37,786 nt of DNA from positions 5,690 through 43,475 of the forward strand of contig JAUNCQ010000015.1 in NCBI GenBank assembly GCA_030526515.1. The letters are read 5' to 3'. The translations under genes were made by a program, and so were the position numbers. This document shows, in pieces, positions 10,808-29,061 of this stretch. Source of the DNA: Coriobacteriia bacterium. Its GTDB lineage: Bacteria > Actinomycetota > Coriobacteriia > Coriobacteriales > Eggerthellaceae. The notes beneath the pieces were generated by a model that ran no database searches, was not told the DNA's origin, and saw only the letters and a list, made by a program, of their open reading frames with translations. How positions within the stretch are numbered: the first letter of the stretch is position 1; each line of letters opens with the position of its first letter.

Positions 10808-12754
10808 ATGGACGAACGCAGATACAACCAAGCACGCAACGCCCGCAACCCGCAGCTTCGCTCTTCGGGCGAAAACGTGCGTCGTTCGCGCCTGAACCCG
10901 TCCCCGTCGGCCGCGAACCGCTCCTCTGACCAGGGCGAAAACCTGTGGGCACGCAACCAGCGCGCCATGCAGGAACAGCGCCGCAGGCAGGAGGCCGCCG
11001 CCCGCGCCAAGGCGGAGGAAGAAAAGAAGGCCAAACCCAAGGAAAAGCCCGCCGAGTCCCGCCCGTCGGTGCGCAGCAACGACCGCACCGCCCGCCGCTC
11101 GGCCTCCACGGCCCGCACCAGCGTCGGCCGCGCCAGCTCCACGACCCGCGCCAGCTCCCGCGCCTCCCGCCCCACGGGCTCGACCCGGAGCCGCGTCACC
11201 GTGGACAGCTCCCTGAGCACCGGCACGGGTACGGGTACCGGCATGGGCACCGCAACCGAGCCCGCCGCGACCCCGCGGACCCGGGCCAACCGCAACGCCC
11301 ATACCATCGACGCCCGCACCAGCTACGCCCAGTCCCCCCGCGCCCGCATGGAAAGCCAGCACGGGCGGCACGCCGTGGCCCCCGCGGACGCTCCCACGGA
11401 AGAGACCATGTTCCGCCAGACCATCAGCAGCGTGGAGCCGGACCATCTTTCGCCCACCGAAATGCCATTCCAGGCCGTGGCGGACCAGCGCGGCGTGCCC
11501 ATTGCCGCCATCGGCAACGGCGGGCACCATCGCAGCTGGTCGTCCATGGAGGCGCAGCCCGCGCCCCAGGCAGGCATCCCCAAGATCGCGCTGATCATAG
11601 CCGCCGTGCTGGCGGTCATCATAGTGGTATTCCTGGTGCTGAAGGGCACCGTGTTCGCCAAGCCCGCCCCCACCGCGGACGCCGCGTCCGACCAGCCCGC
11701 CAAGGTCATGCCCGTGGCCGATGCCGACCAGCCCCCCGCAGACACCGCGGCCACGACCGGCACCCCCGTGAACCTGACCATCTCCTTCGCCGGCGACTGC
11801 ACCCTGGGCACCGACGAGTCCTTCGACCGGGGCAGCAGCTTCAACGCCGCCTTCGAGTCCAAGGGCGACCCCAGCTGGTTCTTCGCCAACGTGGCGGACA
11901 TCTTCGCCAAGGACGACCTGACCGTGGCCAACATGGAGGGCACCCTGACCACCGAAACCTCCCGCCAGGACAAGACCTTCGCCTTCAAGGGCGATGCCGA
12001 CTACGCGCAGGTCCTGGCCAAGGGCAACGTGGACGCCGCCAGCCTGGCCAACAACCACAGCCGCGACTACGGCGAGCAGTCCTACCAGGACACCATCAAG
12101 AACGTGGAGGCCGCGGGCGTTCCCACCTTCGGCTATGACCGCATTGCCTACGTGACCCCCAAGGACGTGAAGGTGGCCCTGATCGGCACCTACGTTCTTG
12201 ACCAGGGCGAAGGCGTGATCGACTCCATGGTCCAGAACATCAAGAAGGCCCAGGACGAAGGCGCCCAGATCATTGCCGTGTACCCCCACTGGGGCAACGA
12301 GCTCGACGACGTGCCCGACAGCACCCAGGTGGCCGTGGCCCATGCGGCCATCGACGCCGGTGCCACCCTGGTGGTGGGCAGCCATCCCCACGTCATCCAG
12401 GGCCTGGAAAAGTACAAGGGCCGCTACATCGTGTACAGCCTGGGCAACTTCTGCTTCGGCGGCAACACCAACCCCACCGACTCCGACTGCATGATCTTCC
12501 AGCAGACCTTCACGGTGAACGGCAAGGACGTGGCCCAGGACGACCAGGTCACCACCATCCCCTGCCGCGTCAGCTCCGTACAGGGCACCAACAACTACCA
12601 GCCCACCCCGGCCGAGGGGTCGGAAAAGGAGCGCATCCAGGAAAAGATCGACCAGCGCACCAACGCCATCGGCGACTCCGTGAGCAAGGCCCGCGCTGAG
12701 GCCGCATCCGCTCCCGACGCAAATAAGGATCAGGGCGAAAAGGCCGCTGCATAA
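10808..12754 (+). CDS. CapA-family membrane-anchored protein with long disordered N-terminus
   Basis: A 648-residue protein. Residues 1 to about 255 are cytoplasmic, basic and low-complexity (Arg/Ser/Thr/Pro, including a short GTGTGTGMG run). A membrane helix (IPKIALIIAAVLAVIIVVFLVL, about 259-283) follows. The rest is an extracytoplasmic CapA/PGA_cap domain: ISFAGDCTLG, NMEGTLT, LANNHSRDYG, HWGNELDDVPDS, GATLVVGSHPHVIQ, IVYSLGNFCFGG. These Asp, Asn and His residues form the metallophosphatase-like site of the family, known from poly-gamma-glutamate capsule synthesis. No other pgs genes are present, so a role in wall or surface polymer is inferred. The ATG at 10808 has GGG six bases upstream; an ATG at 10802 is possible. 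Confidence 0.85.
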   Translation: MDERRYNQARNARNPQLRSSGENVRRSRLNPSPSAANRSSDQGENLWARNQRAMQEQRRRQEAAARAKAEEEKKAKPKEKPAESRPSVRSNDRTARRSASTARTSVGRASSTTRASSRASRPTGSTRSRVTVDSSLSTGTGTGTGMGTATEPAATPRTRANRNAHTIDARTSYAQSPRARMESQHGRHAVAPADAPTEETMFRQTISSVEPDHLSPTEMPFQAVADQRGVPIAAIGNGGHHRSWSSMEAQPAPQAGIPKIALIIAAVLAVIIVVFLVLKGTVFAKPAPTADAASDQPAKVMPVADADQPPADTAATTGTPVNLTISFAGDCTLGTDESFDRGSSFNAAFESKGDPSWFFANVADIFAKDDLTVANMEGTLTTETSRQDKTFAFKGDADYAQVLAKGNVDAASLANNHSRDYGEQSYQDTIKNVEAAGVPTFGYDRIAYVTPKDVKVALIGTYVLDQGEGVIDSMVQNIKKAQDEGAQIIAVYPHWGNELDDVPDSTQVAVAHAAIDAGATLVVGSHPHVIQGLEKYKGRYIVYSLGNFCFGGNTNPTDSDCMIFQQTFTVNGKDVAQDDQVTTIPCRVSSVQGTNNYQPTPAEGSEKERIQEKIDQRTNAIGDSVSKARAEAASAPDANKDQGEKAAA

Positions 12755-12778
12755 CTCCTGTTCAAGTGCCTTTTCCTA

Positions 12779-12803
12779 CCGCTTGGAAACAAGTGGGCGT
12801 TTT
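12779..12803 (+). terminator. Probable terminator after the CapA-family gene
   Basis: CCGCTTG, loop GAAA, CAAGTGG (12779-12796, one G-U pair), then GCG and TTTT. The stem is short and the T-run is brief. Confidence 0.45.
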
Positions 12804-12899
12804 GCGCAAATCATTACTCGCGCGCGAATAAACTAATGCCTGTGCTACGCTGAACCCAATCTATCCAGCGACCATCGAAACCAGCAGCAAGGAGGAATC

Positions 12900-13253
12900 A
12901 TGAAGAAGATCGCACTTACCCTGCTGAGCGCCTTTACCGCCGTGGCCATGACCTGCGGCGTTGCCTTTGCAGCCGAGTCTCCCACGGCTGAGTCCCCCAC
13001 CTCCGACTCCCCCACGGCCAACTCCCCGACGGCGGAAAGCCCCAGCGATGACGGCCCCGAGCTGCCCGAGGACTTCACCCCCGGTGACGGCGCCCGTGGC
13101 GCAGCCGAAAGCACCGCAGAGGCCCAGGGCAAGGACGTGCCCGAGACCTCTCCCCAGACCGGCCTTGACCTGAACGCCGTTGCTGGCGGCACCGTTGCCC
13201 TGGTGGCAGCCGCCGGCGCTGCAGCCGTGGCCCTGCGCCGCGAGCTGGCCTAA
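12900..13253 (+). CDS. Small secreted wall protein with SPQTG sorting signal (probable sortase substrate)
   Basis: A 117-residue protein. It has a signal peptide (MKKIALTLLSAFTAVAMTCGVAFA, cleavage near AFA-AE), then five tandem five-residue units of the type AESPT, then a short acidic linker. The C-terminus has SPQTG (residues 84-88), a hydrophobic segment (NAVAGGTVALVAAAGAAAVAL) and RRELA, which is the layout of a sortase-anchored protein. SPQTG is not the LPXTG of class A enzymes but matches the (S/P)PXTG signals used by Clostridioides difficile class B sortase. The next gene is a class B sortase. AAGGAGGAATC ATG gives a strong start. Too short to be an adhesin with domains; it may be a wall spacer or stalk. 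Confidence 0.8.
   Translation: MKKIALTLLSAFTAVAMTCGVAFAAESPTAESPTSDSPTANSPTAESPSDDGPELPEDFTPGDGARGAAESTAEAQGKDVPETSPQTGLDLNAVAGGTVALVAAAGAAAVALRRELA
12972..13046 (+). repeat. Five tandem 15-base units coding (A/S)(E/D/N)SPT
   Basis: The units start at 12972, 12987, 13002, 13017 and 13032 and encode AESPT, AESPT, SDSPT, ANSPT and AESPS. They are in frame within the SPQTG wall protein. Such repeats can expand and contract. Confidence 0.8.
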
Positions 13254-13267
13254 ACTCCCGAGCACGA

Positions 13268-13296
13268 CCCGGTCGGCGGAAGCCGGCCGGGTTTTT
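13268..13296 (+). terminator. Intrinsic terminator between sortase substrate and sortase
   Basis: CCCGGTCGGC (13268-13277), loop GGAA, GCCGGCCGGG (13282-13291), then TTTTT. The single T opposite G is a legal G-U pair in the plus-strand RNA. The T-run merges into a TTTCGCCC octamer (13294-13301). Substrate expression is therefore probably uncoupled from, or higher than, sortase expression. Confidence 0.85.
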
Positions 13297-13345
13297 CGCC
13301 CCTTTACGTAGTACCCGTCACGCAGCAGGAAAGAACGCACGAGCC

Positions 13346-14116
13346 ATGTCCGAAGCACGCCCGAAGAAGCGGACCCCCGTCATTGTGGCGCTGATCCTGG
13401 TGATCATCGTCTGCCTTGCCGGCGCCATCACCGGCGGCGTGTACCTGCTCAGCGTCAACCAGCAGATATCGGACGTGGAGAACTCCGCCCAGGTCACGCC
13501 TGCGGCTCCCGAGCCCAAGCTGGAAAAGAACCCCATCGACTTCACGAGCCTGCGGGAGCAGAACAAGCACATCTACGCGTGGATCTACGTGCCTGGCACC
13601 AAGGTGAACTACGCGGTGTGCCAGAGCAAGAACAACGCCTTCTACCTGGACCACAACGAAAAGCGGGAGAAGAGCTCCCTGGGCGCCATCTTCAGCGAAG
13701 ACTACAACGCCAAGGACTTCCAGGACCCCGTGACCATCCTGTACGGGCACAACGGCGCCAAGAGCACCATGTTCGGGTCCCTGCACAAGTTCTCCGACAA
13801 GGACTTCTTCAAGAAGAACAAGGTCATGTACGTGTACGCCCCCGGCCACATCTACACCTACAAGATCGTGAGCGCGTACACCACCAACAACCGCCATCTC
13901 ATGGGCGCCTACAACTTCTACAACGCCGACCAGCTGGCCTCGTTCCAGGAGCAGGTCCTGAACCCTGCCGCCGTGGACAAGAACGTGCGCAAGAAGACCA
14001 CGCTGGACGCATCCAGCAAGCTGCTGGTCCTTTCCACCTGCAACACCGGCGCCCTGGCCAAGAGCGCCCGCTACCTGGTGATCGGGGTGATGACCAATGA
14101 CCAGCCAACCAAGTAG
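13346..14116 (+). CDS. srtB: Class B sortase
   Basis: A membrane-bound cysteine transpeptidase that cuts a sorting signal and joins the protein to the cell wall. The 256-residue protein has an N-terminal helix (VIVALILVIIVCLAGAITGGVYLL) that leaves the catalytic domain outside. Class B features are the WIYVPGTKVNYAVCQSKNNAFYLDHN opening and the catalytic triad His135 (TILYGHN), Cys232 (LVLSTC) and Arg242 (ARYLVIGV). The upstream neighbour ends in SPQTG and is the natural substrate candidate. The next gene starts 20 bases before this one ends, so sortase and LCP protein are made together. The ribosome site (AGGAAAG) is rather far from the ATG. Confidence 0.92.
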   Translation: MSEARPKKRTPVIVALILVIIVCLAGAITGGVYLLSVNQQISDVENSAQVTPAAPEPKLEKNPIDFTSLREQNKHIYAWIYVPGTKVNYAVCQSKNNAFYLDHNEKREKSSLGAIFSEDYNAKDFQDPVTILYGHNGAKSTMFGSLHKFSDKDFFKKNKVMYVYAPGHIYTYKIVSAYTTNNRHLMGAYNFYNADQLASFQEQVLNPAAVDKNVRKKTTLDASSKLLVLSTCNTGALAKSARYLVIGVMTNDQPTK

Positions 14117-15245
14117 CGACCATCTGGACCCGCAAGTGGAGCAGCCCCAAGCTCAGGGCGAAAGCCAGGACATGGTCACCATCCGCGTGCGCAAGAAGCG
14201 CCGCACCAAGCGTCGCCACGAAGACGCCCCCAAGCGCCGCGGCCTGAAGGTGGCCCTGATCGCGCTGGGCGTGGTGCTGGCCGCGCTGCTGGTTTCCGGC
14301 CTTGCCGTGGCGGGCCTGGTGAACGCCGGCAAGATCAACCTGCACCCGCTGTTCCAGGGCATCGAGGCCCCGGAGGAAGTGGAGTCCGAAGACGACGGCA
14401 GCGTCATCGAGCACAAGGGCCACCGCTACGCCTACAACGAAAACGTGGTGAGCGCCCTGATCATCGGCTACGACGACGAATCCGGCTACACCAGCCGCCC
14501 CGACTACAGCTGCGCCGACGCCAACCTGCTGCTGACCATGGACACCAAGACCAACCGGGTCAAGCTGTGCGTGATCCCCCGCAACTCCATCGTGGACCTG
14601 GACGTGTTCAAGGAGGACGGCAGCCTGAAGGCCACCCGCCGCGCCCAGCTGTGCCTGGCCTACGCCCAGTTCCCCAACACCGACAAGCGGGCCGCGGAAA
14701 ACACGCTGAAGTCCGTTTCGACCCTCATGTACGGCATGCCGCTGAACCACTACTTCGCCTTCGACGAAAAGGGCCTGGTGGAAGCCACGGGCATGCTGGG
14801 AGGCGTGCGGGTCGAAGCCCTGGAGACCATCCCCGGGACGCCCATCCGCAAGGGGCAGGAAGTGCTCCTTCAGGGCGAAAACGCCTGGCGCTACGTGAGC
14901 TATCGCGATATTGACGTGGACGAGTCCGCCCTGGACCGCCAGCGTCGGCAGATCCAGTTCGCCCAGGCGTTCCTGACCGCCGCCCGCTCCGGCGGCGCCA
15001 AGGGCATCATGGGCATGTACGATGCCGTGAAGAGCCGCGCGGTGACCAACCTGGGCGCCAGCGAGATCGGCTACCTGGTGTCCTGCTTTGCCTCCGGCAA
15101 GAAGGTGGAGCTGGAAACCTGCACCATCAAGGGAAGGACCAAGCTGGCCACCGGCTCCGACGGCGTGGAGCTGGAGCGCTACTACTTGAACGACAACAGC
15201 GTGTTGGAAACGGTCCTGGACCTGTTCTACACGCGGATCGACTAG
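14097..15245 (+). CDS. LytR-CpsA-Psr (LCP) family wall-polymer transferase
   Basis: LCP proteins move lipid-linked polymers (teichoic acid-like or capsule) onto peptidoglycan on the outer face of the membrane. This 382-residue protein has a basic cytoplasmic N-terminus (VRKKRRTKRRHED), one membrane helix (about residues 52-76) and an LCP domain. Visible core motifs are VVSALIIGYDDESG, ADANLLLTMDTKTNRVKLCVIPRNSIVDL and YRDIDVDESALDRQRRQIQF, with the conserved arginines and aspartates. The usual IPRD is IPRN here, a small departure. It overlaps srtB by 20 bases and is followed after 36 bases by the Wzz-like gene, so it bridges protein anchoring and polysaccharide genes. Confidence 0.87.
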   Translation: MTSQPSSDHLDPQVEQPQAQGESQDMVTIRVRKKRRTKRRHEDAPKRRGLKVALIALGVVLAALLVSGLAVAGLVNAGKINLHPLFQGIEAPEEVESEDDGSVIEHKGHRYAYNENVVSALIIGYDDESGYTSRPDYSCADANLLLTMDTKTNRVKLCVIPRNSIVDLDVFKEDGSLKATRRAQLCLAYAQFPNTDKRAAENTLKSVSTLMYGMPLNHYFAFDEKGLVEATGMLGGVRVEALETIPGTPIRKGQEVLLQGENAWRYVSYRDIDVDESALDRQRRQIQFAQAFLTAARSGGAKGIMGMYDAVKSRAVTNLGASEIGYLVSCFASGKKVELETCTIKGRTKLATGSDGVELERYYLNDNSVLETVLDLFYTRID

Positions 15246-15281
15246 CGGACCCTACCGCCAAGCAAGGGAGGAACTGAGGAA

Positions 15282-15956
15282 ATGACACTGCTGGAACTGC
15301 TGCAGCTGCTGCGCAAGCACCTGCGCCTGGTCGTGGCGCTGCCAGTGGCCTTTGCCCTGGTAGCAGCCGTGTACTGCTGGGGATTCATGCCCAACCAGTA
15401 CACCGCGGAAACGTCCATCTACGCGCTGTCCAAGACGGAGACCACTGCCCAGAGCGCTGAGGCGGGCCCGTCCTACGGCGACCTGAACGCCTCTCAGCTG
15501 CTGGCCAACGACTTTGCCGAGCTGGCCAAGAACGAGCAGGTGCAGAACAACACCGCCCTGGCCCTGGGCATGGAGGACCTGGAGGGCTACAAGGTCAACA
15601 TCACCTCCTCCACCACCACCCGCGTGATCAAGCTTTCCGTGACCGGCGGCGACCCCAACAACGTCGCTCTGATCGCCAACAAGCTGGCGTCGGAGATCGG
15701 TTCCACGGCCACCAAGGTCATGGACGTAAAGGCCGTCAACATCATCACCCAGGCCAAGGCACCGGACAAGCCCTCCGGCCCGCGCCGCGCCATGTACACC
15801 CTGGTTGCGCTGCTGGCCGGCCTGTTCCTGGCCGTTGCCCTGGTGGTGCTCATGGACATGGTGAACACCACCATCCGCAATGACGAGGACATAACCGAGG
15901 GCCTGGGGCTGCCGGTCATCGGCCGCTTCCCGGAGCAGAAGGGAGGTCGTAGGTAA
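15282..15956 (+). CDS. Wzz/CpsC-type polysaccharide chain-length regulator
   Basis: A 224-residue membrane protein with helices near both ends (about residues 16-36 and 170-192) and an extracytoplasmic middle, the Wzz layout. The start MTLLELLQLLRKHLRLVVALPVAFALVAAVYCW and the proline-rich entry to the second helix (ITQAKAPDKPSGPRRAMYTLVALLAG) are typical of CpsC/Wzz proteins. In Gram-positive systems this protein activates the BY-kinase encoded next. Its TAA overlaps the kinase ATG (TAATG), so the two are translated together. Confidence 0.88.
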   Translation: MTLLELLQLLRKHLRLVVALPVAFALVAAVYCWGFMPNQYTAETSIYALSKTETTAQSAEAGPSYGDLNASQLLANDFAELAKNEQVQNNTALALGMEDLEGYKVNITSSTTTRVIKLSVTGGDPNNVALIANKLASEIGSTATKVMDVKAVNIITQAKAPDKPSGPRRAMYTLVALLAGLFLAVALVVLMDMVNTTIRNDEDITEGLGLPVIGRFPEQKGGRR

Positions 15957-16714
15957 TGGCACTGTTCAAGAGTAAGCGCAAGAAGGACCTGCGCCCCAGC
16001 ATCGCCATCAGCCGCAGCGACGCCTTCCAGAACGCCGCTGCCACCCTCATGGCGAACATCCGCTTCTGCAGCGTGGACAAACCCATCAAGACCATCGTGA
16101 TCACGTCCTCCGCTCCCAACGAAGGAAAGACCACCGTAGCCGTTGCCCTGGCGCTGGCCATGGTCCGCGCAGGCAAGAAGGTCCTGATGGTGGAAGGCGA
16201 CATGCGCCGCCGCTGCCTGCAGGGCATGCTGGACGTGCGCACGCCCCACGGCGTCCACGCCGTGCTCAGCCATGAGTGCACCGCGGAGGAGGCCATTGTG
16301 GCCACCAACGACGAGGGCCTGTTCTTCCTGAACGCAGAGGGCGGCATCCCCAACCCCGAGGCCATCATCGATTCCCAGAGCTTCGCCGACCTGCTCAAGG
16401 ACCTGGGCGAAGCCTACGACTACGTGATCATTGACACCCCGCCCGTGGCAGCGTTTTCCGACGCAGCGGTGATTGCCAGCAGGGTTGACGGCACCATCCT
16501 GGTAGCCCGGGAAGGCTACACCGAGCGTGCCGAGGCCGCCTACGCCACGGACCAGCTGAAGGCATCCGGCGCCAACATCCTGGGCGTGGCCATGAACGGC
16601 AAGAGCGCCCAGGCCGGCAGCTACGGCTACTACTACGACTACTACTACGAGGACAAGACCGTCCCCGCCAACAGCCCCGAAGCCAAGGCAGCTCTGCAGA
16701 AGGACCAGGCCTAG
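15956..16714 (+). CDS. CpsD/CapB-type bacterial tyrosine kinase (BY-kinase)
   Basis: A cytoplasmic autophosphorylating tyrosine kinase controlling capsule or exopolysaccharide assembly, 252 residues. Walker A is SSAPNEGKTT (Lys58), Walker A' is VLMVEGDMRR (VEGD in place of the more usual VDAD/VDLD), Walker B is YDYVIIDTPP. The C-terminal tyrosine cluster YGYYYDYYYED is the autophosphorylation tail. It is coupled to the Wzz-like gene upstream and lies 3 bases before the phosphatase gene. Confidence 0.92.
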   Translation: MALFKSKRKKDLRPSIAISRSDAFQNAAATLMANIRFCSVDKPIKTIVITSSAPNEGKTTVAVALALAMVRAGKKVLMVEGDMRRRCLQGMLDVRTPHGVHAVLSHECTAEEAIVATNDEGLFFLNAEGGIPNPEAIIDSQSFADLLKDLGEAYDYVIIDTPPVAAFSDAAVIASRVDGTILVAREGYTERAEAAYATDQLKASGANILGVAMNGKSAQAGSYGYYYDYYYEDKTVPANSPEAKAALQKDQA

Positions 16715-16717
16715 GCC

Positions 16718-17356
16718 ATGCGCGACCAGCACTGCCACATACTCTGGGGCGTTGACGACGGCGCCGCTACCTGGGACGACACCCTGGCCATGCTGGCTGC
16801 CGCCAAGGAGGCCGGTGTGGACCGCATGGTCTGCACGCCGCACCTGCGCTGGGACGACTTCGACGAAGGCGTGGTCCGCAGCCGTTTCGCCCAGTTCAAG
16901 GAACATTCAGCGGACGCTGGCGTGACCGCGGAGCTGGGGTTCGAGGTCTACTACAAGACCCTGCTGAAGCGCGGCCTGGACTGCGCGCCCCGCTACTGCC
17001 TGGATGGAACCAACCAGCTGCTGCTGGAGTTCAACTCAGGGGGCGAAATCCCCTTCGGGTGGGAGCAGACCGTGGACAAGCTGCGCAACGTCTACGGGTT
17101 GGACGTGACAATAGCGCATCCCGAAAGGTACTCCACCGCATGGAAGGACTTCGATGCGGTGTACCAGCTGAAGGACGCCGGCTGCTCGCTGCAGGTGAGC
17201 GCCATGGACCTGGAAGGAGGTTTTTTGAGCAAACCGACCAAGGTGGCCAAGCGTATGATGAAGGAGGGCCTGTGCGACGCCCTGGTAAGCGACGCGCACC
17301 GAGCCGAGCATTACGCGCGCTTTGCGAAGATGACCTCCCGCTTCGGCACACCTTAA
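16718..17356 (+). CDS. CpsB/CapC-type PHP-domain tyrosine phosphatase
   Basis: A metal-dependent phosphatase that removes phosphate from the BY-kinase tyrosine tail, 212 residues. PHP-fold metal motifs are visible in order: DQHCHILWGVDDGA (residues 3-16), CTPHLRWDDF (about 37), LEFNSGGEIPFGW (about 105), IAHPERY (about 131) and VSDAHR (about 188). It ends the sortase-LCP-Wzz-kinase-phosphatase run. No glycosyltransferase, flippase or polymerase follows. Confidence 0.9.
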   Translation: MRDQHCHILWGVDDGAATWDDTLAMLAAAKEAGVDRMVCTPHLRWDDFDEGVVRSRFAQFKEHSADAGVTAELGFEVYYKTLLKRGLDCAPRYCLDGTNQLLLEFNSGGEIPFGWEQTVDKLRNVYGLDVTIAHPERYSTAWKDFDAVYQLKDAGCSLQVSAMDLEGGFLSKPTKVAKRMMKEGLCDALVSDAHRAEHYARFAKMTSRFGTP

Positions 17357-18257: not shown

Positions 18258-19535
18258 GTGACCGGTATTTCGTCCCATCCGTACGTCCGCGCTGCTGCCG
18301 CAGCCCTATGCGGGGCAGCCCTTGCCCTTGCCTGCGGCGCTGGCCTGAGCTTCGCCCTGCCCCAGCCGGCCCATGCAGCCGCCACCGATGCCCAGATGGA
18401 GACCGCCTTCAAGCGCTCCGTGGCCAAGATCAAGGACTACCGCAACCAGCCGCAGGTCATCAAGGTCAAGGTCAGCGACCTGGGGCTGACCAGCAAGCAG
18501 AAGCAGCAGGTCATGGACCGGGTGCACTACAGCGGCGAGTACTTCTGGGTGAACACCCTGGGCAACGGCAAGTTCGACAATGACTACCTGCTGTATCCGT
18601 GTGTGTATTCGGACGAAACCATCGATCGCATGCGCACGAAGTTCGAGGCCGGCATCAAGCGCGCACTGAGCGGGTTCGACTCCACCACCGGCAAGGCACA
18701 GCGGGTGCATCTGCTGCACGACTGGATCATCCGCAGCAACACCTGGGTGTACGACAGCAACTACACCCACAAGTCCGCCTACGGAACCATTGCCGCGGGG
18801 ACGGGCGACTGCCTGAGCTTCACCCTGGGCATGCAGGTGCTGCTGAAGCGCGCCGGGCTCACCACGCTGTACGTGCAGAACATGAGCGTGGCCAGCGGCG
18901 GCGGGCATGCCTGGAACCTGGTGAAGATCGGCTCCAACTGGTATCACGTGGACACCACCTGGGACAACTCGTGGACCGGCAAGTACTTCTGGAAGGACTC
19001 CATCTGCCACCGGTGGCTGCTGCGCTCCGACTCCGGCATGCGCGACGACGACCACAACGTAGGCTCCGGCTGGACCGTGTTCTACAAGGGCGCCCTCACC
19101 ACCAAGTACAAGGCCCGCAGCACCGCCTACGCCAAGGAGGACGGCTGGAAGAAGAGCTGCGCCAAGCGCGCAAAGGTGGGCACCACGTTCACCGCCAGCG
19201 GCGTGACCTACAAGGTGGTCTCCAAGAAAAGCGTCTACGTGACCCGCATTGCCAGCGCGTCCAAGCGCAAGGCCACCACGCTGACCCTGCGCGCCAGCGT
19301 CCCCTACAAGGGCTGCGGCTACCAGGTGATCGGCATCCGCGCCAAGTCCCTGAGCGGCACCGCAGCAAAGACCCTGAAGGTCTGCAGCACGGCCCTGAGC
19401 AAGGACCGGGTGAAGGGCAGCCTGAGCGGCTCGCGGGTGAAGACGGTGCGGACCTATGCCGGCAAGGTAGCTGCCTACAAGAGCTGCTTTGCCAAGGCCA
19501 ACAGCGGCCGCTCCGTCACCGTGCGGGCCTTCTAG
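18258..19535 (+). CDS. Secreted transglutaminase-like (papain-fold) protein
   Basis: A 425-residue exported protein with a signal peptide ending near AHAA (about residue 42). The transglutaminase-core triad is present: Cys185 in TGDCLSFTLGMQVLLKRAG, His217 in GGGHAWNLVKIGSNWYHV and Asp232 in HVDTTWD. Bacterial members act as peptidases or crosslinkers at the surface. A C-terminal region (about residues 300-425, Lys/Ser/Thr-rich) may bind the wall and resembles the low-complexity tails of its neighbours. The GTG at 18258 is the start because GGAGG lies six bases upstream; a TTG further up falls inside that site. A convergent terminator follows at 19614. Confidence 0.83.
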   Translation: MTGISSHPYVRAAAAALCGAALALACGAGLSFALPQPAHAAATDAQMETAFKRSVAKIKDYRNQPQVIKVKVSDLGLTSKQKQQVMDRVHYSGEYFWVNTLGNGKFDNDYLLYPCVYSDETIDRMRTKFEAGIKRALSGFDSTTGKAQRVHLLHDWIIRSNTWVYDSNYTHKSAYGTIAAGTGDCLSFTLGMQVLLKRAGLTTLYVQNMSVASGGGHAWNLVKIGSNWYHVDTTWDNSWTGKYFWKDSICHRWLLRSDSGMRDDDHNVGSGWTVFYKGALTTKYKARSTAYAKEDGWKKSCAKRAKVGTTFTASGVTYKVVSKKSVYVTRIASASKRKATTLTLRASVPYKGCGYQVIGIRAKSLSGTAAKTLKVCSTALSKDRVKGSLSGSRVKTVRTYAGKVAAYKSCFAKANSGRSVTVRAF

Positions 19536-19613
19536 CCGGCGGCGCCGCGCGGCAGCGGCGCGCCACGATCCCGCGGACCGCCCCGGACCAGCCACCAGCC
19601 CCCGAGCATGAAA

Positions 19614-19647
19614 AAGCGGGCGAAAGCGACGTTGCTTTCGCCCGCTT
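19614..19647. terminator. Bidirectional terminator built from two inverted octamer copies
   Basis: AAGCGGGCGAAAGC (19614-19627), loop GACGTT, GCTTTCGCCCGCTT (19634-19647): a perfect 14-base stem. A-run on the left and T-rich tail on the right serve both convergent genes. Each arm contains one complete GGGCGAAA octamer. Confidence 0.92.
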
Positions 19648-19665
19648 GCTTATTTTGGGCCGCTG

Positions 19666-20943
19666 CTACAGGGCGTTGTACAGGTAGCCGATATGACCGG
19701 CGCGGAAGCCGATGCACTTCTTCATGTCGGAGATGCTGTACTTGACCGCGCGGTGCTTGCTGATGGTGTTGTAGACGTTGCCGCTGGGGTCATGGGAGTA
19801 GAAGACGTTGCGCTTGGCATCGTACTTGTAGAAGATGACGTAGTGGCCGCCGTGGTACTCCCACACGCCGTCGGAGTTCATGAAGCACTTGCCGCCGCCG
19901 CGGCTGACCAGGTAGACGTAGCCCTTCATCAGGCCGTCCTTCATCTTCTCAATGCATTCGTTCACCGACTGGGTCTTCTTGGCCGGGGTGCTGAAGTCCA
20001 GCTTCTTCATGGTGACCTGCTTCACGCCGAAGTATTTCTCGCTGAACTGGCTGTGGGTCAGCTTCGGGGACTCCAGCTGGCCGTTGGTGCTGCTGCCCGT
20101 CAGGTCGGACCCGCGCCAGGAGCCCTTCAGGCCGCCGCGCAGATAGTACATGTCGCGCGGGGTGTAACTGCCCTTGGTCAGGATGTCGATGGCCATGGTG
20201 TAGCTGACCAGGCCGCAGCCGCTGCCGCCGATGTTCTTGCCGCTCCAGTAGGGCAGGTTGTACCAGTCGCTGGTCTTGTCGTTCTGACCGAAGAAGGCGT
20301 AGTTGGCGCCCTTCCACTTCCACTTGGCGTACAGGTCCAGGTTCTTGGCGGTGCCCTTGGCGACCTTGGTGATCTTCTTGGTCAGGGAGCTGTTGGTGTA
20401 CCAGCCCGCGAACGTGTAGCACGCGCGGGTGGGGCTCTTCAGGGTGAAGGTAGCCGTGGACTTGGTGAAGGTGGTGCGCTGGTTGGCCGCCTGCTTGCCG
20501 CCCCGCAGATGATAGCGGATCACGTAGGTGCCCGCCTTCTGGGAGGTGCTGGCCTTCTTCCACTTGGCGTACAGGGTGCGCTTGGAGGTGGTGGACACGC
20601 CCTGGACCTTGGTGGCGGCAGTCTTCAGGGAGCTGGTGGTGTACCAGCCCGCGAACGTGTAGCCGGGGCGGGTGGGCTTCTTCAGCTTGGACACGGCCAG
20701 GGACTGGCCCTTGAACACGCGGACGGTCTGGCCCAGAGGCTGGTCTCCGCCGTTCAGGTGGTACTTGATCACGTAGCTGGTGCGCTTGGTGGGCGAGATA
20801 TCGGACTCGGTGTAGCCGTCGTCACCGATGTTGAGCTGGGTCAGCGCGGCGTGGGCCGTCGGAGCCGTGGCAGCCACCAGGGCGAAGGAAAGCACGGCGC
20901 ACGCCATCAGGCGCGGCACGCGCACGGACTGTTCGTGTTGCAT
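19666..20943 (-). CDS. Secreted C39-like cysteine peptidase with two InlB-type repeats
   Basis: A 425-residue exported protein. A signal peptide (about residues 1-33, ending TAHA) is followed by two InlB/Flg_new beta-repeats (about residues 57-128 and 138-212, each with the PTR.xYTFAGWYT motif and YAKWK ending). The C-terminal domain (about 215-425) has a papain-like C39_2 pattern: Gln in FFGQNDKTSDWYNLPYW, Cys243 in GGSGCGLVSYTMAIDIL, His367 in GGHYVIFY and Asp385 in SHDPSGN. It is one of three paralogues in this window. AAAGGGG lies before the ATG. Substrate unknown; a host or competitor protein or a wall peptide is plausible. Confidence 0.85.
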   Translation of the reverse strand: MQHEQSVRVPRLMACAVLSFALVAATAPTAHAALTQLNIGDDGYTESDISPTKRTSYVIKYHLNGGDQPLGQTVRVFKGQSLAVSKLKKPTRPGYTFAGWYTTSSLKTAATKVQGVSTTSKRTLYAKWKKASTSQKAGTYVIRYHLRGGKQAANQRTTFTKSTATFTLKSPTRACYTFAGWYTNSSLTKKITKVAKGTAKNLDLYAKWKWKGANYAFFGQNDKTSDWYNLPYWSGKNIGGSGCGLVSYTMAIDILTKGSYTPRDMYYLRGGLKGSWRGSDLTGSSTNGQLESPKLTHSQFSEKYFGVKQVTMKKLDFSTPAKKTQSVNECIEKMKDGLMKGYVYLVSRGGGKCFMNSDGVWEYHGGHYVIFYKYDAKRNVFYSHDPSGNVYNTISKHRAVKYSISDMKKCIGFRAGHIGYLYNAL

Positions 20944-27538: not shown

Positions 27539-28942
27539 ATGCAACGTACGCGCATCGCAACGCTTTTTGCCGACGCTGATCAGCTTGACGGAGCCACGCT
27601 GACGGTGGCGGGCTGGGTCCGCTCCATCCGCGACATGAAGAACTTCGGCTTTGCCGCCCTCAACGACGGCAGCTGCTTCAAGGACCTGCAGGTGGTCATG
27701 AGCCGTGAGGCCCTGGAGAACTACGACGAGATCGCCCGCCAGAACGTGGGCGCTGCCCTGGTTGCCACCGGCACCCTGAAACTGACCCCGGACGCCCAGC
27801 AGCCCTTCGAGCTGACCGCCACCCAGATCGAGGTGGAGGGCGCATCCGCTCCCGACTACCCGCTGCAGAAGAAGCGCGCCACCGTGGAGTTCCTGCGCAC
27901 CCAGCAGCATCTGCGTCCCCGTACCAACCTGTTCCGCGCCGTGTTCCGCGTGCGCTCCGTGGCGGCCTTCGCCATCCACTCCTTCTTCCAGGAGCGTGGC
28001 TTCGCCTACGTGAACACCCCCATCATCACCGCATCCGACGCCGAGGGCGCAGGCGAGATGTTCCGCGTGACCACCATCGACCCGGCCAACCCGCCGCTGG
28101 ATGACAAGGGCAACGTGGACTACAGCCAGGACTTCTTCGGCGGTCCGGCCCACCTGACCGTGTCTGGCCAGCTGAATGCCGAGAACTTTGCCATGTCCAT
28201 GGGTGACGTGTACACCTTCGGCCCCACGTTCCGCGCGGAAAACTCCAACACCGCCCGCCACGCCGCCGAGTTCTGGATGGTGGAGCCGGAAATGGCCTTC
28301 GCCGACCTGGAAGACGACATGAACGTAGCCGAGGAGATGCTCAAGTACGTCATCCGCTACGTCATGGAGCGCTGCCCCGACGAGCTGAACATGTTCAACA
28401 AGTTCGTGGACAAGGGCCTGATCCAGCGCCTGGAGCACGTGGCCGGCAGCGACTTCGCTCGCGTCACCTACACCGAGGCCATCGAGATCCTGGAGAAGGC
28501 AATCGCCGGCGGCCACAAGTTCGAGTTCCCGGTCGAGTGGGGCATTGACCTGCAGACCGAGCACGAGCGCTTCCTGACCGAGTCCCACTTCAAGAAGCCC
28601 ACCTTCGTGTACGACTACCCCGCCGCCATCAAGGCCTTCTACATGCGCCTGAACGACGACGGCAAGACCGTGGCCGCCGCCGACTGCCTGGTGCCGGGCA
28701 TTGGCGAGATCATCGGCGGCTCCCAGCGTGAGGAGCGCCTGGATGTGCTGGAGCGCCGCATTGCCGAGCTGGGCATGGACGCCGAGCAGTACACCTACTA
28801 CTGCGACCTGCGCCGCTACGGCTCCTGCAAGCACGCCGGCTTCGGCCTGGGCTTCGAGCGCCTGGTCATGTACCTGACCGGCGTCAGCAACATCCGCGAC
28901 GTGATCCCCCACCCGCGCACCGTGGGCAACGCGGAGTTCTAA
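27539..28942 (+). CDS. asnS: Asparaginyl-tRNA synthetase
   Basis: Charges tRNA-Asn with asparagine (class IIb synthetase), 467 residues, the normal length. The N-terminal OB-fold anticodon-binding domain (about residues 15-105, [24 protein letters not shown]) is followed by the catalytic core with [24 protein letters not shown] (motif 2) and [25 protein letters not shown] (motif 3). AAGGAG lies upstream of the ATG. Its presence means the cell does not depend only on transamidation of Asp-tRNA-Asn. It has its own terminator at 28966. Confidence 0.96.
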
Positions 28943-28995: not shown

Positions 28996-29061
28996 GCTTT
29001 TCAGGGCGAAAGACCCGCTCCGTACCAAGCCGGCGCAGAAACGGCGTTTTCGTCCTGCAAT

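Follow-up and report, generated by a model that had tools for sequence, protein, structure and literature searches.

GGRCGAAA, a candidate DNA uptake sequence of an Eggerthellaceae species, some inverted pairs of which are predicted to serve as terminators

The stretch of DNA analyzed here (the window; 37,786 nucleotides) contains, between two convergent genes, a perfect hairpin at positions 19614 to 19647, each arm of which holds a copy of the octamer GGGCGAAA. The inverted octamers and their 14-base stem had already been pointed out in a first-pass annotation, and both are confirmed here; the question is what this octamer is and why two copies of it should form a single stem. The arms, AAGCGGGCGAAAGC (19614-19627) and GCTTTCGCCCGCTT (19634-19647), are paired along all 14 bp (Table 1). 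The predicted RNA fold has an energy of -37.1 kcal/mol on the plus strand (shuffled sequences, -19.9; z of -5.5) and -37.7 kcal/mol on the minus strand (z of -5.9), and none of the shuffled sequences of either strand folded as well as the native one. A terminator scan accepted the hairpin on the plus strand, with 5 T among the 8 tail bases, and its minus side is absent from the same list. The plus-side tail is an interrupted T-run (GCTTATTTT); on the minus strand, the stem leads directly into TTTTTC (the stem TT followed by TTTC), by eye the better U-tract of the two. An Rfam search of the window detected no known RNA; positions 10808 to 17356 are occupied by a surface-polymer cluster that includes genes for a PGA_cap capsule protein, a sortase, LytR-CpsA-Psr, and Wzz, along with a tyrosine-kinase-like gene.

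The element at 19614-19647 has the GC-rich stem followed by a T-tract, 3' of a gene, that characterizes intrinsic terminators and can be predicted to end, probably, the transcription of both facing genes. It resembles the intrinsic (Rho-independent) bidirectional terminators in its perfect stem, short loop, T-rich tails, and location between convergent genes but differs from them in that its stem consists of two copies of a genome-wide tag and its plus-side tail is interrupted.

Table 1. Coordinates of the hairpin, its flanking genes, and the GGRCGAAA sites listed for the window
Feature	Position	Strand	Remarks
Hairpin, predicted bidirectional intrinsic terminator	19614..19647	.	Perfect 14-bp stem, 6-base loop GACGTT (19628-19633)
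GGGCGAAA copy	19618..19625	+	5' arm of the hairpin; extension GCGACGTTG, matching gmnmCGyyv
Inverted GGGCGAAA copy	19636..19643	-	3' arm of the hairpin; extension GCAACGTCG
T-rich tail for plus-strand transcripts	19648..19657	+	GCTTATTTTG
T-tract for minus-strand transcripts	19606..19615	-	TTTTTCATGC, read on the minus strand; first TT is the stem end
Convergent gene 1	18258..19535	+	Secreted protein, transglutaminase-like core (PF01841)
Convergent gene 2	19666..20925	-	Secreted protein, Listeria-Bacteroides repeats (PF09479)
GGGCGAAA	29004..29011	+	Extension GACCCGCTC; begins a +- pair with a spacer of 36, 3' of gene 27539-28942
GGACGAAA	29048..29055	-	Extension ACGCCGTTT; second of the +- pair begun at 29004
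GGGCGAAA	30790..30797	+	Intergenic, CG at +12
GGGCGAAA	32272..32279	+	Intergenic, CG at +12
GGGCGAAA	13294..13301	-	Intergenic, CG at +12
GGACGAAA	2537..2544	+	Intergenic, CG at +12
GGACGAAA	21072..21079	-	Intergenic, CG at +12

The octamer is abundant throughout the genome. Its statistics were derived from 438 to 789 kb of sequence stretches and from pattern counts over the entire 2.417-Mb draft genome; in the 438-kb sample, 90% of which is coding, genes were called with a caller seeded on codon-position composition. The window alone contains 29 copies of GGGCGAAA (1.6 expected) and a total of 48 GGRCGAAA sites. Genome-wide, GGGCGAAA is found in 1,778 copies (883 on the plus strand and 895 on the minus strand; 40 in the reversed control) and GGACGAAA in 1,016 copies (508 on each strand; reversed control, 77), which amounts to 2,794 copies of GGRCGAAA, about one per 865 bp. 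Between the genes of the 438-kb sample, GGGCGAAA occurs 114 times and GGACGAAA 58 times, with 4.8 and 2.4 copies, respectively, being expected; the coding copies number 201 and 120, compared to 25 and 13 under synonymous codon shuffling. The enrichment is thus ∼24-fold between genes and, beyond codon choice, ∼8-fold within them. Three other words, GGCCGAAA, GGTCGAAA, and GGGCGAAG, were at or near expectation in the intergenic sample, without clear enrichment, and because this holds for GGCCGAAA and GGTCGAAA, the core word is defined as the R-specific GGRCGAAA.

The octamer is about as dense in divergent gaps as in convergent and tandem ones (3.7 to 4.9 per kb) and is therefore not, as such, a signal for starting or ending transcription. 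None of the large contigs showed a strand bias (e.g., 79 copies on each strand of 160 kb). The spacing of the copies, analyzed on five contigs, was more even than random on two of them and less even on one. Codon-atypical genes show no clear depletion, the observed-to-expected ratio being 7.1 in the lowest GC3 class and 6.6 to 8.9 in the others, a flat trend. The number of long GGRCGAAA-free gaps fits a Poisson distribution, and the largest of them spans 11.45 kb. This stretch (C41:21223-32673 of the source genome, G000; L029) has a GC content of 0.55, compared to 0.645 overall, carries genes for a transporter along with several oxidoreductase-like genes, and may have been recently acquired. 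A search of the draft genome for integrases returned none of the phage type, only chromosomal-looking XerC/D-like genes (C32:7265 and C5:18236).

The octamer forms the core of a longer, weakly conserved motif of ∼20 bp, wnrGGRCGAAAgmnmCGyyv (positions -4 to +16), which is present even at isolated sites, i.e., the 190 intergenic copies that have no other copy within 70 bp. At these sites, positions -3, -1, +8, +9, +11 to +13, +15, and +16 depart from the background. The CG at +12/+13 accompanies 39% of 931 sites, compared to about 10 to 14% of unrelated octamers, and is seen in every common reading frame; by hand count, a central CG is contributed from both sides in 14 of the 50 pairs listed. 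In the hairpin at 19614-19647, the extended motifs of the two arms overlap in a central ACGT, common to both because the octamers are separated by a spacer of 10 bases.

Closely spaced copies show a marked preference for the +- order, in which 54 pairs within 30 bp were found genome-wide, compared to ∼10 expected from the octamer density and none in the reversed control, whereas the 13 pairs in the -+ order are near the chance level (about 10). The result that would have refuted the first-pass annotation, a lack of any other inverted pairs near gene ends, was thus not obtained. Among the strong intergenic hairpins of the 438-kb sample, 7 of 54 (∼13%) contain a pair; four of these are located in convergent gaps, three in tandem gaps, and none in divergent gaps, and all seven lie 3' of genes, in line with the suggestion that the pairs might be found downstream of stop codons. 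Some inverted GGRCGAAA pairs are therefore best read as predicted bidirectional terminators, which lends support to the earlier idea of uptake-sequence-like octamers doubling as a terminator, with their role in uptake being itself inferred. That they do so very often, as was said of Neisseria and Haemophilus, is too strong a statement for this genome: termination appears to be a side use of the motif, because just these 7 of the 54 hairpins employ it. The signal is contained in 54 to 57% of the terminators in Neisseria and in 16 to 29% of those in Pasteurellaceae (PMC1852404); the share found here is nearer that of Pasteurellaceae, equal to or a little less than the lowest of its values, in a comparison that is rough, as the hairpin definitions differ.

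The source genome encodes the components that pilus-driven transformation generally requires. An operon on contig C70 comprises pilB, pilT, pilC, several pilin genes, pilM, likely pilN and pilO (both assigned by position only), and pilD. ComEC adjoins ComEA, assigned by its helix-hairpin-helix sequence and position, on C75, and DprA is encoded on contig C5. ComP, the receptor of the neisserial DUS, is strongly basic; no ComP-like pilin of this kind was seen among the pilins checked for charge, and no ComP homologue was recognized. Amid the small pilins of the C70 operon (L186:13181-19771), one gene encodes a protein of 2,196 aa whose N terminus resembles that of pilins and in which no Pfam domain was found; it may be an adhesin or a very large minor pilin. 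Four scattered type IV pilin genes (C15:3753-5692, C33:130367, and C74:9335) share a near-identical N terminus and diverge in the remainder, as if they formed a duplicated, diversifying family.

Uptake sequences spread over the whole genome have been described in Neisseriaceae and Pasteurellaceae, the neisserial DUS being GCCGTCTGAA and the Pasteurellaceae USS being AAGTGCGGT, with extended flanks. The DUS is found in ∼1,900 copies per genome, equally on both strands, within and between genes, and its +- pairs act as terminators, most frequently where genes converge; the +- bias and the terminator use were described by Kingsford and colleagues for both Neisseria and Pasteurellaceae (PMC1852404). 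The copy number, strand symmetry, and +- bias of GGRCGAAA match the figures published for DUS and USS (PMC1852404). As in the case of the neisserial DUS, the copies reside on both strands, inside and outside genes, in an organism with a type IVa pilus; the differences are that the word is another one and that the organism is an actinobacterium in which pairs form a minority of the terminators. The Pasteurellaceae USS has a weak extension about one helical turn from the core, a moderate +- excess, and some pair spacings that accommodate the extension (PMC1852404). GGRCGAAA similarly combines a core with a weak extension about one helical turn off and has some pair spacings that fit it, but this extension contains mCG rather than A/T tracts, and both the word and the phylum are unrelated. 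Several of the features that would be expected of a DUS or USS, namely, about 1,000 or more copies, the lack of a strand preference, an extended motif, a +- excess with some pairs at gene ends, and the genes for a retractile type IV pilus and DNA import, are found in this genome. GGRCGAAA can thus be regarded as a candidate uptake sequence, without being assigned as a member of either DUS or USS.

On balance, it appears likely that GGRCGAAA, within its ∼20-bp motif, is a DUS-like tag of this Eggerthellaceae species and that some of its pairs have been kept as terminators, a reading that fits the facts better than any rival framed here. According to this proposal, a DNA receptor of the type IV pilus would prefer DNA that carries the tag, and such DNA would be imported by PilT retraction followed by ComEA/ComEC transfer. 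Recombination by DprA/RecA would then spread the tagged alleles, which is why ∼2,800 copies of the word could have built up, oriented both ways and most densely packed in sequence free of coding constraint. Close copies in the +- order would form GC-rich hairpins, some of them retained as intrinsic terminators at gene ends, and the hairpin at 19614-19647 would be one such retained pair.

The relatives of its SerRS protein put the source genome within Eggerthellaceae (Coriobacteriia) or close to that family. Among 398 sampled genomes of the class, no other genome had more than two +- pairs. The sole genus-mate compared, G001, has the same R-specific word in a weaker form, with 38 and 15 intergenic copies compared to 4.9 and 2.5 expected. 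In aligned orthologues (median protein identity, 79%), 17 of 35 G001 sites are at the same positions as in the source genome, so that the word either is older than the split or has been exchanged since; the count includes any sharing due to general sequence conservation. No comparable octamer was detected in 100-kb samples of the PilB-bearing relatives outside the genus (G002, G004, G008, and G043), so the pilus alone is no predictor of the motif, and no other dialects were found in pilus-bearing relatives from the sampled wider family. G001 itself gave no match to PilB and carries two PilM genes, on the short contigs C11 and C75; with these found, the idea that pilus loss explains its weaker motif was dropped. 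The presence of two PilM genes in this draft could reflect a strain mixture (8% contamination), which makes its gene content uncertain.

The alternative that survives best, albeit an unlikely one, is that GGRCGAAA is the site of a nucleoid-associated or chromosome-organizing protein, selected at ∼2,800 places, with the hairpins as by-products. A bound protein would also fit the strand symmetry, the wide scatter, the extension over about two helical turns, and the enrichment in all intergenic classes. However, the sites of nucleoid proteins seldom depend on an invariant 8-bp word repeated by the thousand, and the clear difference in the abundance of the R-specific word in the genus-mate would be expected of drive rather than of an essential architecture site; both considerations argue against this alternative indirectly. 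A polar recombination or segregation signal similar to Chi or KOPS, suggested by the octamer length and the thousands of copies, is highly improbable: such signals are expected to be strand-biased along the replichores, whereas the two strands have similar numbers of copies, both in total and on each large contig of this draft genome, whose replichores are unmapped, and neither the extension nor the +- excess would be expected. Equal strands and similar densities across the gap types also make a promoter or terminator, as well as a polar Chi- or KOPS-like signal, unlikely as the main cause. There is just as little reason to regard the octamer as a standard terminator stem, abundant for that purpose and unrelated to uptake; its +- pairs do make strong hairpins 3' of genes, but ∼65% of the copies are inside genes, the density in divergent gaps is hardly lower, the pair occurs in a small minority (7 of 54) of the strong hairpins, and isolated copies have an extension of their own. 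Codon or dipeptide preference and base composition can be dismissed. The in-gene copies do prefer frames in which common codons spell Gly-Glu, Phe-Ala, or Ser-Pro, but the intergenic enrichment and the ∼8-fold excess over synonymous shuffling exclude codon usage as the source, and single-base neighbors of the octamer are unenriched between genes.

If GGRCGAAA is indeed a DUS-like tag, it would represent a further origin of self-DNA recognition beyond Neisseriaceae and Pasteurellaceae. It seems somewhat likely that a DUS with this core of its own arose independently in an Eggerthellaceae actinobacterium, where it would be served by a type IVa pilus and its pairs would have been recruited as terminators. 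A literature search of incomplete coverage retrieved no paper linking uptake sequences with Eggerthella, and such tags are, as far as could be found, undescribed in this bacterial branch. According to a 2019 review, type IV pilus-mediated competence is found only in Gram-negative species (PMC6370729). An independent case of uptake sequences in a monoderm lineage would imply that a bias toward self-DNA evolves repeatedly alongside pilus-driven transformation. The drive model would become testable between two congeneric species that have a strong and a weak version of one word, and the tag would suggest a route to the transformation of hard-to-manipulate actinobacteria in the laboratory.

A scan of viral contigs yielded a fixed-spacer palindrome that is apparently unrelated to GGRCGAAA. 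Dispersed palindromes of this kind, built around GGGCGAAARATYTTTCGCCC and having an invariant spacer of 4 bases, are found in IMG/VR contigs L227, L230, L242, L247, L271, and L282, where they occur several times per 10 kb and are often flanked by GTA/TAC.
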